A stretch of 64,000 nucleotides of DNA from positions 14,274,836 through 14,338,835 of the forward strand of contig OU744454.1 in assembly GCA_916610825.1 (NCBI GenBank), written 5' to 3'. Made by a program: the position numbers and the translations under genes. The notes beneath the pieces were generated by a model that was not told the DNA's origin, ran no database searches, and worked only from the letters and a program-made list of their open reading frames with translations. This DNA comes from Haliclystus octoradiatus. Taxonomy: Eukaryota; Cnidaria; Staurozoa; Stauromedusae; Haliclystidae. This document shows positions 21,594 to 64,000 of this stretch, in pieces (the first letter of the stretch is position 1; every line of letters starts with the position of its first letter).

Positions 21594-21710
21594 TCAGCTG
21601 CAATCCAGTTCAGAATTTTTCAAATCCTCTAGGTTTGTAATAGTTTCAGGAGATAAATGAGAGATTTCTTCTATAGTAACATCCTCTTTTGAAAATATGT
21701 CTGTTATAAC
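21594..21710 (-). CDS. Large minus gene, exon 16 (C-terminal)
   Basis: Acidic 38-residue C-terminus (VITDIFSKEDVTIEEISHLS...SELDCS) ending in TGA. The acceptor TTTTAAAG is in phase 0, matching the donor of the previous exon. Confidence 0.6.
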   Translation of the reverse strand, partial: VITDIFSKEDVTIEEISHLSPETITNLEDLKNSELDCS

Positions 21711-62600: not shown

Positions 62601-64000
62601 ACAATATGTTAAGTCCCGGCCAAATGAGGCCAACATTTCGGCAGCTTTTTCACAACATCGATGTTGGCTTCATGTGGCCACCCAAGCCAGCATTTTGCCA
62701 GCATTTTCACAACATTGAGCAACATTTTTATCAAATGATGGCAAAATGTTGGCTTCATTTGGTCACCCCAGCCAACAAATTTCAAGAAATGTTTGTGTTG
62801 GATTTTGTTGGCTGGCACTTTGAAGATGATAAAAAAAATTTCAAACATTTTATTGTTCTCTTCGATGTTGTGAAAATGCTGGCTTCATTTAGCCACCCTA
62901 GCCAGCATTTTCGCACTTATAGAATTTCAAAGAATGAAAAGAACGTCACTACTACTGGTCAATGATCACGTAATGTTTTCAGTTAGTTATGTAATAACAA
63001 CAGCTTGGCGATAAAGTCGTGCCATGAATATTTTGATTCATCATTTTATAGAGTCGAAAAATACAAATAATAAAGCTTTGTCATTTTCTGTAGCAGTTTT
63101 GTTTTCTGTTTATTCGAAATTTTCAAGTGATTATAGCATCTCTGCGATGGAAGACACCCGACAAAAGAAAGTACAAGTTGCGATTCAACAGAGATTGATT
63201 ATTAAAATATATTGAGGTTTAATATACAATTTCCCACGAATGGTAGAGCAAAGAAGGACAACCAAAAAGAAAGATATTACTGAACGAGGATAGTTTGAAT
63301 AAACCTAAAACGAGTGACGCAGAAGATGATTTCCCTTTTAGAAATTGAATCTTTTCGGCTCAGGATGTTGTGTAAATGCTGACTTCATTTAGCCAAAATT
63401 CTATCTTCATCTGGTCACCCCAGTCAGCAATTCACAACATTGTGATCGATGTTGTAAACTTGCTGGCAAAATGCTGAATGGGGGGGGGGGGGGCAAATGA
63501 AGCCAGCATTTTCACAACATTGATGTGAAATGTTATCAAATGTTGTGAAAATGTTTGCTTCATTTGTCCGGGGCTTTATTCTTTATTCAATATCTCATAT
63601 TCCAGACTTTGTTAATATCCAACATCCTTAGTACAACTTGTTTCAATATATTTTATGCTACCATTCTATGGTACCATTCTATGGAAATTTATCTGCAGTG
63701 TCGCGGCTGTGATCTAAGGAGCGTTTAACATCATTGCTCTCAGCGAAAAAAGCTACTCCTCCAGAAATAGAGGAGTGGTACGGGTGCCTTCGGTAGGGCG
63801 ACACCGTCCACACTACTTACTTTTTACTATGCAAAGGTAATTTGCCAACATTCTGGATTATCATCTTTTGTTTTCTACCCTTAAACGTGTAGGTATCAAA
63901 CTTGAGAAACAATCAAAACAAATCGATTTTGGCCTTCGGATCGAGGGCACAATAAATTTTCTTGGCTATGAGGCAGTGATCACGATCAATGCCAAAAAAG
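44451..64000 (+). CDS. Large secreted beta-repeat protein, divergent paralog (3' partial)
   Basis: Exons are 44451-44628, 45384-47011, 47715-47923, 51364-51633, 60120-60269, 62253-62483 and 63893->64000. All six junctions keep frame. Five introns are phase 1; the one after exon 2 is phase 2. It begins with a signal peptide (MVLLYVLFVLMCGSRAHA), followed by long beta-rich repeats and a Lys/Glu-rich low-complexity linker in exon 4. GLGYTIG, LGGSLYFGGK and YFYGEINNVTVASVADAYDL then suggest an antiparallel beta architecture. Shared motifs with the minus gene (LLNC; YGY..VKNL versus YFYGEINNV) and similar introns suggest common ancestry. Two one-base frame breaks occur in exon 2. Function is unknown; secretion is inferred from the leader. 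It continues beyond the window. Confidence 0.68.
45384..47011 (+). CDS. Large plus gene, exon 2 (contains two frame breaks)
   Basis: About 540 codons: SDLLENIDDLMAKDKLPSGM, KLSKEGTTLNISVSDKEC, LPAKLSIENIIYNHKSKSMK, FQIAAYDTVSHQPAFDSAEV, PYIMIVSDGSVPLLQDKIF, GIHIRIFLEIKSALENC, NLKVDAKVLLNCLDP and IELKVQSSAEKEWIFSA. Frame changes near 45553-45557 (A5) and 46035-46040 (GGTTTT) are each repaired by one added base (reading FFLKKFSNNPIS and SLLGFQIAAYD). Acceptor TTGATGCAG and donor TTCAG|GTAATC. Confidence 0.75.
47715..47923 (+). CDS. Large plus gene, exon 3
   Basis: MSGSPIIKGIDMASIEALVW, RGFCIGFVIRNIRLDTLFQN and LGLKFPAPGWLTDLTI. Acceptor TTTTCGTAG completes the Arg codon from exon 2; donor AATAG|GTGGGT. 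Confidence 0.75.
48112..48520. mobile_element. MITE with AGGGAGGTTTAGATTTA end, second copy
   Basis: The left end CAGGGAGGTTTAGATTTAAT with ACCGGTACCGG matches 16764-17191. The interior shares CGGAGTACATG/GTAGTTCATAC-like and AAGGAGGTCAGTACAGGTTT stretches. The right end is diverged (CTTTACCAGACCTAATTC). Intronic in the plus gene. Confidence 0.65.
48712..48945 (-). repeat. SINE family 1, headless copy
   Basis: GTAGACGGTGTCGCCCTACC, CTCTATTTCTAGATGAGTGG, GAGCAATGATTTTATACGCT and CGACACTGCAGATCAATTTC match 235-480 closely. The tRNA-like head is missing. Confidence 0.85.
49000..49130. repeat. Inverted homolog of the sequence flanking 54356
   Basis: GTTATTTCAAGACAGCCCCC, GCCATTCCATGGCAACCACT and AAAAGTATATGGGTTTGCG correspond in reverse orientation to 54370-54425 (GCTTTTAGGGGTTGCCATGG, GTGGGTTGTCTTGAAATAAC). 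This indicates another dispersed repeat into which the 52517-54356 element inserted. Confidence 0.45.
49562..49981. mobile_element. MITE with long inverted ends, second copy
   Basis: TAGACCGAGCGCCACAGAAC...and...GTTCTGTGGAGCTCGGTCTA bound a 420-bp element matching 20467-20926 throughout. Intronic in the large plus gene. Confidence 0.88.
51364..51633 (+). CDS. Large plus gene, exon 4 (charged linker)
   Basis: AMYSNADRNPEKPKVKAKTD, EEKAKQKSINDAEKLTRNKK, GIHALKLAGDKMASIAIGK, KKENEEEDTDDKEG and MQILDLGGLSVKK. It is a Lys/Glu-rich, probably disordered insert in an otherwise beta-rich protein. Acceptor TTACCCTTAG and donor AAAAAAG|GTAACA, phase 1. Confidence 0.72.
52517..54356. mobile_element. hAT-like non-autonomous element, 1.84 kb
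   Basis: Inverted ends CATAGATTATAGAATACAGG-GATT and AATCCCTGTATTCTATAATC-TAT are flanked by GCGTAGAC at 52509-52516 and 54357-54364, an exact 8-bp duplication. Inside there are only short unrelated open frames, so no transposase is recognised. It is in the 8.5-kb intron of the plus gene. Confidence 0.82.
55355..58786. mobile_element. 3.4-kb DNA transposon-like element with about 230-bp TIRs and TTAA flanks
   Basis: Starts AGTGCCTATGAAATGAAAAA and ends TTTTTCATTTCATAGGCACT, with further matches across about 230 bp of each end (GACGTCAAGAGTTGTACAC / GTGTACAACTCTTGACGTC). TTAA is on both sides, as for piggyBac and Kolobok elements. The interior has short open frames (55655-55930, 57250-57483) without a transposase signature, so it may be non-autonomous or decayed. 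Confidence 0.78.
56858..57002. repeat. Inverted repeat nested in the 3.4-kb element
   Basis: TTTGAGATAAATGACAGCGA and TCGCTGTCATTTATCTCAAA form arms of about 45 bp (also AGAGACATGATT / AATCATGTCTCT). AATCAATTGAC occurs on both sides. Probably a small foldback insertion. Confidence 0.75.
59385..59490. repeat. Foldback-family fragment
   Basis: TTGCGATCTTCAGAGGCTAT, AATGAAACTCTGAGTAACGG and ATTATATAATGCTCTG keep the motif order of the GATGATCGC family (GATCGC/CTTCAG, GAAACTC.GAGT.ACGG, GCTC). Single arm only. Confidence 0.45.
60120..60269 (+). CDS. Large plus gene, exon 5
   Basis: KIMVDISGTLELAFDMAGKW then DNAFGLQRFALGGARLGLGY and TIGMPAPKI. Acceptor CTTCTTCTAG after a pyrimidine tract; donor ATAC|GTATGC. 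Phase 1 at both ends. Confidence 0.78.
60352..60932. mobile_element. MITE with TAAAGTGT.TATCTCGCC ends
   Basis: TAAAGTGTATATCTCGCCTT, ACGGATTTGGACAGAGCTTT and TTCGTACAT at the left are inverted at the right (ATGTACGAATAGAAAAAAAA, CTATCCAAATCCGTTTAAAA, GGCGAGATAGACACTTTA). It is about 580 bp and non-coding. A truncated relative is at 16383. Confidence 0.78.
60955..61150 (-). repeat. SINE family 2, old copy
   Basis: CATTTTAATAAAAACCGGGT, AAGCTTTTTTACCGGGG, GACCGGACTACCTTCCTAAC and CATCCTAACCACTACACCAA keep the family order, including a degraded tRNA head at the right. Confidence 0.65.
61843..62097. mobile_element. MITE with CCCATATAGC...GCAGGCAAATTCGCTATATG ends
   Basis: TTAAGTTCCCATATAGCCAG and CGCTATATGAGAGCCAGGCT form the diverged inverted ends. 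The interior has GATCTTTTTTCTATTGTTTA, GACCGGATATCATTACTCCC, and ATGTCGCAGGCA twice. Same family as 2347 and 24414. Confidence 0.75.
62253..62483 (+). CDS. Large plus gene, exon 6
   Basis: LGGSLYFGGKGKQIMISIYF, GFDPTGKDNYFYGEINNVTV, ASVADAYDLNAKKMPKAVKE and SGFPHGLLISWTSNPN. Acceptor TTTCTTTAG and donor GAATG|GTAATA. The YFYGEINNV segment parallels exon 7 of the minus gene. Confidence 0.8.
62605..62925. repeat. Foldback element, GGCCAAATGA.GCCAACATTT family
   Basis: CCCGGCCAAATGAGGCCAAC, ACAACATCGATGTTGGCTTC, GTGAAAATGCTGGCTTCATT and TAGCCACCCTAGCCAGCATT alternate in direct and inverted orientation, giving several stacked hairpins. Intronic in the plus gene. Confidence 0.7.
63360..63580. repeat. 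Foldback element of the same family, with G14 run
   Basis: CTTCATTTAGCCA, CAACATTGTGATCGATGTTG, a run of 14 G's at about 63481-63494, then CAAATGAAGCCAGCATTTTC and GCTTCATTTGTCCGGGGCT. The ends match the 62605 and 24625 elements. Confidence 0.65.
63680..63832 (+). repeat. SINE family 1, 3' part
   Basis: TCTGCAGTGTCGCGGCTGTG, GAGGAGTGGTACGGGTGCCT, TCGGTAGGGCGACACCGTCC and ACTTACTTTTTACTA match the complement of 220-370. Opposite orientation to the other copies. Confidence 0.85.
63893..64000 (+). CDS. Large plus gene, exon 7 (runs off the window)
   Basis: GIKLEKQSKQIDFGLRIEGT then INFLGYEAVITINAKK, joined in phase to exon 6 (AAT G|GT ATC). Acceptor ACGTGTAG. No donor is seen before the window end; the gene continues to the right. 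Confidence 0.7.

Follow-up and report, generated by a model that had tools for sequence, protein, structure and literature searches.

The window analysed here is a 64,000-nt stretch of chromosome 9 (C11:14274836-14338835) of Haliclystus octoradiatus (Staurozoa); positions are those of the window unless a chromosome is named. The same assembly includes an 18,316-base mitochondrial genome (C33), whose first 6,000 bases carry a DNA polymerase-like frame, large-subunit rRNA, cox1, cox2 and a tRNA with anticodon tca, the reading frames being labelled by eye. The window carries a divergent gene pair. Using a simple gene finder together with reading of the sequence, we placed the start codons at 44451 (plus gene) and 40544 (minus gene), 3.9 kb apart. 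This agrees with the initial annotation, which had described two multi-exon genes that start ~3.9 kb apart and run in opposite directions. Also borne out were a first exon that resembles, by eye, a signal peptide in each gene, giant second exons of exactly the lengths claimed, and introns that are mostly phase 1 in both genes. The main points of that description hold; what it missed were frame breaks in both copies and a family of at least 19 genes to which the two belong. To assign exons, we used exon profiles and a full-length profile, the latter from six other family members. All were built from paralogs without either window gene, and the search space for the exon profiles was 1,482 window frames.

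In the plus gene (plus strand), exon 1 (44451..44628) appears by eye to encode a signal peptide (MVLLYVLFVLMCGSRAHA...) and the start of the mature chain, and it ends in phase 1. Exon 2 (45384..47011; 1,628 nt) is homologous to six intact copies elsewhere in the genome (1,609-1,648 nt, all 1 mod 3). Its main piece matches the family profile with E = 1.5e-135, and the exon has to be read in three frames, with breaks near 45.56 and 46.03 kb. Exon 3 (47715..47923; phase 2 to 1; E = 3e-30) is followed by exon 4 (51364..51633), a charged low-complexity linker whose start, MYSNADRNP, is common to four chr2 paralogs, and then by exon 6 (60120..60269; E = 2.2e-20) and exon 7 (62253..62483; E = 5.4e-34). 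The plus gene matches the family profile in exons 2, 3, 6 and 7, with order and phase conserved. The profile of family exon 5 gave no match in the extended plus locus and none above noise in the window. Exon 8 (63893..64000) is cut by the window end and runs on to chr9 14,339,146. The remainder of this exon and exons 9-14, which lie beyond the window (L008, L009), fall within about 15 kb. Apart from exon 2, every plus exon found has an open frame and usable splice sites.

The minus gene (minus strand) begins with exon 1 (40487..40544), which ends in phase 1 and by eye encodes a signal peptide, MYKYFFLVLYIVSHGAAFQ. Exon 2 (38001..39565; 1,565 nt) contains a single frame break near 38.34 kb and is read in two frames; the two pieces match the exon 2 profile with E = 3e-17 and 0.0014. 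The exon is collinear in the full-length profile, and compared with the family about 90 profile positions are missing from it. Segment 2 of the full-length match spans exon 2 into exon 3 (37407..37619), for which the exon profile alone gives E = 0.69. No good acceptor was found for exon 3 in the phase used by the family, and this is possibly a further lesion. A possible, weak exon 4 (36251..36343) comes from the gene model. Exons 5 (35238..35498), 6 (33540..33683) and 7 (32548..32799, with the YGY..VKNL motif) are placed by order and phase, and minus copies of exons 5, 6, 7, 12 and 13 did not rise above noise in the exon profile search. Profile matches were obtained for exon 8 (31655..32094; E = 2.9e-7), the Cys-rich exon 10 (30213..30352; phase 1 to 0, weak donor; E = 5.2e-5) and exon 14 (22643..22866; E = 0.0031). 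An Ala/Lys-rich coiled coil in the position of exon 9 (30753..31029) tops the exon 9 profile list at an E of only 0.16 and lies within segment 3 of the full-length match. Exon 11 (28630..29137), which ends polybasic, is placed by order and phase; like exons 3 and 9, it ranks high in the profile search without significance (E = 1.4, noise). Segment 4 starts in a separate exon (26455..26676) that, judged by eye, probably corresponds to the C-terminal portion of family exon 11, and this segment includes exon 14. The proposed last exon, with stop (21594..21710), comes from the gene model. Its end at 21594 makes a plausible end of the minus gene, and the plus gene extends past the window end.

Are the two genes related? 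The joined minus protein scores 93.5 bits against the full-length profile, in four collinear segments, compared to 2.8 bits for the best of 200 shuffles. Pairwise, the second exons of the two genes share 20% identity over 277 aa (BLASTP, E = 6e-4). Judged from sequence, the minus gene is a member of the family and homologous to the plus gene, so the relation proposed in the initial annotation is found by profile comparison. The motif pairs offered as evidence for it fare less well. The two LLNC stretches lie in different columns of the family alignment, paired by an off-diagonal BLASTP piece (19.2 bits, E = 0.35), and are probably not homologous. For the second pair (YGY../YFYGEI..), both exons do occupy the exon 7 position, although the exon 7 profile alone misses the minus exon.

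The family extends well beyond the window. A genome search with exon 8 returned 18 loci, counting that of the query itself (13 on chr2, three on C1, one on C5 and one on chr9). An independent search with exon 10 returned 17 loci, all in exon 8 genes. In 17 of the 18 genes, exon 10 follows downstream of exon 8 on the same strand, at a distance of 1.9-17.2 kb; none was found near the C5 exon 8 locus. The convergence of these searches on the same loci indicates that the exons form one gene. All locus counts are lower bounds. The exon 8 list misses the minus gene, whose sequence has diverged too far, and adding it gives a family of at least 19 genes. Searched with the last 316 aa of plus exon 2, the genome yields six other loci, with open frames of 548-586 codons and identities of 44-59% (four on chr2), 29% (a fifth on chr2) and 24% (C1). 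A diverged exon 2 query adds the C5 locus, open over 530 codons. One recent pair of copies is 99.1% identical over 3.4 kb.

Exon order and phases are the same in six other modelled loci. The family proteins are about 1,500-1,600 aa long. Exon 2 is 1,609-1,648 nt (phase 1 to 2) and exon 3 188-209 nt in six genes (392 in one); exon 4 is variable and charged. Exons 5 and 6 measure 276-294 and 150 nt, respectively, each in five genes, while in the chr2 31.87 Mb gene neither of them was detected. Exons 7 and 8 measure 228-237 nt and 407-422 nt (the latter phase 1 to 0), each in seven genes. The coiled-coil exon 9 spans 271-318 nt, and the Cys-rich exon 10 is 179 nt in the plus gene. Exon 11 is 688-703 nt in five genes and 1,096 nt in the C1 gene, with shorter helical exons after it. 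The family appears genuine and conserved. The exons for the helix and the Cys-rich segment, which the initial annotation had assigned to the minus gene, are not limited to it, as the plus gene carries both beyond the window end.

Proximity of the two genes invites the idea of a local duplication, and we rejected it. In a tree of 19 exon 8 sequences, the plus gene and four chr2 genes make up a five-gene clade (support 100/99), which places the nearest kin of the plus gene on chromosome 2. The branch of the minus gene in this tree is very long (4.85), and its placement is unsure. The two are thus distant members that lie side by side. The initial annotation's picture of large, secreted products related by duplication is supported (secretion being probable), but "duplicated pair" is misleading. 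Compared with the plus gene, the chr2 paralogs (L002-L006) have the same exon order and phases and an intact exon 2, whereas the plus gene has a broken exon 2 and no detectable exon 5.

How should the broken exons be understood? Exon 2 can be read as one open frame in 6/6 other fetched copies and in neither window copy. Its length is 1 mod 3 in those six and 2 mod 3 in both window copies. There are three frame breaks in the giant exons of the window (two plus, one minus) and none in the six other copies (9,786 nt). Had the three been spread by length over the eight exons, the chance that all would fall in the window copies is 0.015. The published assembly QV, 56.6 (PMC9975415), predicts 0.007 errors in the 3,193 nt of both giant exons; were errors independent, the probability of three or more would be about 6e-8. 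One caveat here is that errors in homopolymers do not occur independently of one another in long reads, which makes the argument weaker than its number. At this accuracy, assembly error is unlikely to explain the breaks, and the two window genes, each with a frame-broken giant exon, are probably pseudogenes of recent origin or null alleles.

Several lines of evidence indicate that any decay is recent. Among five exon 2 copies (306 shared codons), pN is 0.24-0.40 and pS, which is near saturation, 0.67-0.83, with pN lower in 10/10 pairs. Part of exon 2 was under purifying selection until recently. Where a column is conserved four ways, the plus copy differs from it in 9/77 cases, no more often than the paralogs (2/70, 10/78, 24/92 and 33/101). 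This rate, together with the open frames of the plus exons outside exon 2, argues that whatever decay has occurred is recent.

The same observations lend weight to the strongest competing explanation, namely that the breaks are assembly errors or occur only in the assembled haplotype, and that both genes work in the animal. Beyond exon 2, the plus exons found keep open frames and usable splice sites, the plus copy bears no sign of long relaxed evolution, and the assembly represents one haplotype, a second being deposited according to PMC9975415. Against error stand the QV quoted above, the absence of any break in the six other exon 2 copies, the absence of an internal stop in 18/18 exon 8 matches (a kind of list biased towards open copies), and the lack of a good acceptor for exon 3 of the minus gene. 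On balance we regard working genes as a serious contender, although not the likelier one.

To ask what the proteins might be, we scanned for known domains. No Pfam family reached the gathering cut-off in the parts scanned, which covered joined exons 1-3 and 6-8, exons 2 and 8 of paralogs, exons 5, 7, 9, 10 and 11 of single paralogs and several minus exons. Exon 9 of one paralog gave weak matches to 17 Pfam families, none at cut-off, several of them coiled-coil proteins by our reading. No sequence match to the PDB was found in the parts scanned, and for exons 2-8 no solved structure is matched by sequence. Large uncharacterised proteins with a similar coiled-coil and Cys-rich tail are probably annotated in other cnidarians and invertebrates.

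The AlphaFold2 model of exon 2 (pLDDT 78.9, pTM 0.71) consists mostly of long antiparallel strands reaching 15 residues, groups of which are separated by helices. Structural matches to this model were at background level only and name no relative; mitochondrial and outer-membrane beta-barrels (VDAC, porins) were considered as comparison systems for the family. Beta periodicity is elevated in exons 5-8 (0.73-0.85 of windows versus 0.55-0.57 in shuffles) and slightly so in exon 2 (0.64 versus 0.57). Exons 9, 12 and 14 show helical periodicity (0.25-0.32), while exons 3, 10 and 11 show neither kind in excess. Beta-rich sequence following the leader, as the initial annotation had it, is therefore supported; the repeats it described there are not, since a search for internal repeats returned none that was significant. 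Exon 10 contains 5-7 Cys in 6/6 members. A KR/RR motif occurs in exon 11 of 4/6 members (plus, L002, L005, L006) and in exon 14 of 4/4 members with that exon modelled.

We tentatively propose, with a probability of about 45%, that both genes belong to an unnamed family of secreted oligomeric scaffold proteins and that both copies in the window are likely to be pseudogenes of recent origin or null alleles. A signal peptide would take an intact family protein into the secretory path. In the first ~1,000 residues (exons 2-8), long antiparallel beta sheets would make up most of the fold, with exon 4 as a variable, charged and probably disordered linker between sheets. The coiled coil of exon 9 and the Cys-rich segment of exon 10 may join chains into a disulphide-locked oligomer, and the KR/RR sites in the C-terminal helical part could be cleaved by proprotein convertases. 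Such a protein would serve as a scaffold within an extracellular secretion or matrix. For the family proteins, we infer secretion, oligomerisation, processing and role alike, and the structural or recognition function suggested for the two genes in the initial annotation keeps that status. A bolder version, which we consider possible but unlikely, is that this giant secreted family, unnamed in Pfam, has as its main body a new type of long amphipathic antiparallel beta assembly and is expanded and partly decaying in stalked jellyfish, having kept its modular 14-exon layout through interchromosomal moves.

Other functions can be envisaged. The long amphipathic sheets might form a groove or cavity, making the protein a putative carrier of lipid or another hydrophobic ligand outside the cell. 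The beta periodicity of exons 5-8 and the 15-residue strands and intervening helices of the exon 2 model are compatible with this idea, which nonetheless seems rather improbable. More doubtful is a recognition or immune-type family whose diversity is kept by duplication: the cluster of many diverged copies, the recent pair and the far-diverged minus gene fit such a history, but purifying selection in exon 2 across the plus gene's clade, and the failure of any lectin, Ig or leucine-rich domain to reach cut-off in the parts scanned, speak against it. It is very improbable, and already largely refuted, that the model has joined exons of several unrelated genes. Although the exon models come from sequence and none of minus exons 5, 6, 7 and 11 is found by its own profile, six other modelled loci repeat the order and phases, and exons 8 and 10 occur together in 17 of 18.

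Returning to the proposed scaffold family, a multigene family with no Pfam match at cut-off in the parts scanned and, over exons 2-8, no sequence match to a solved structure marks a genuine gap in what is known of animal extracellular proteins. What the window mainly offers is two broken copies and, with them, the key to the family. Staurozoa are poorly studied animals that live attached to seaweed. Given this habit, one may speculate that an expanded secreted scaffold is a candidate glue or matrix.

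The window carries a PAN-like secreted gene in two tandem copies on the minus strand (13690–17597 and 6035–8944). In the one copy tested, the segment at 17190–17597 gave a PAN_1 match (E value 2.4e-4) that falls slightly short of the cut-off for PAN_1. The exon that comes next after each of the two copies, also on the minus strand, is β-rich and of similar kind.

Tandem repeats are present as well: an (ATA)n array of ∼425 copies (27015–28290, 99% matches) lies inside an intron of the minus gene, and a unit of 22 bases is repeated 22.5 times at 4611–5104. Two frames, at 12464–12922 (minus strand) and 10599–11039 (plus strand), resemble the tails of a Penelope-like element and of a non-LTR retrotransposon. 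Outside the window, L010 covers sequence further downstream than the plus gene; there, at 84457–87026 of the joined region, lies a long frame that by eye resembles a non-LTR retrotransposon encoding an endonuclease and a reverse transcriptase. The mitochondrial contig (L046) has a DNA polymerase-like frame at its end (3–827, minus strand), as is also the case in other medusozoans.

Within the family itself, two chromosome 2 copies, L034 (31.174 Mb) and L035 (31.107 Mb), are separated by ∼67 kb and share 99.1% identity across 3.4 kb, including the flanks of exon 8; this pair is a recent duplication.
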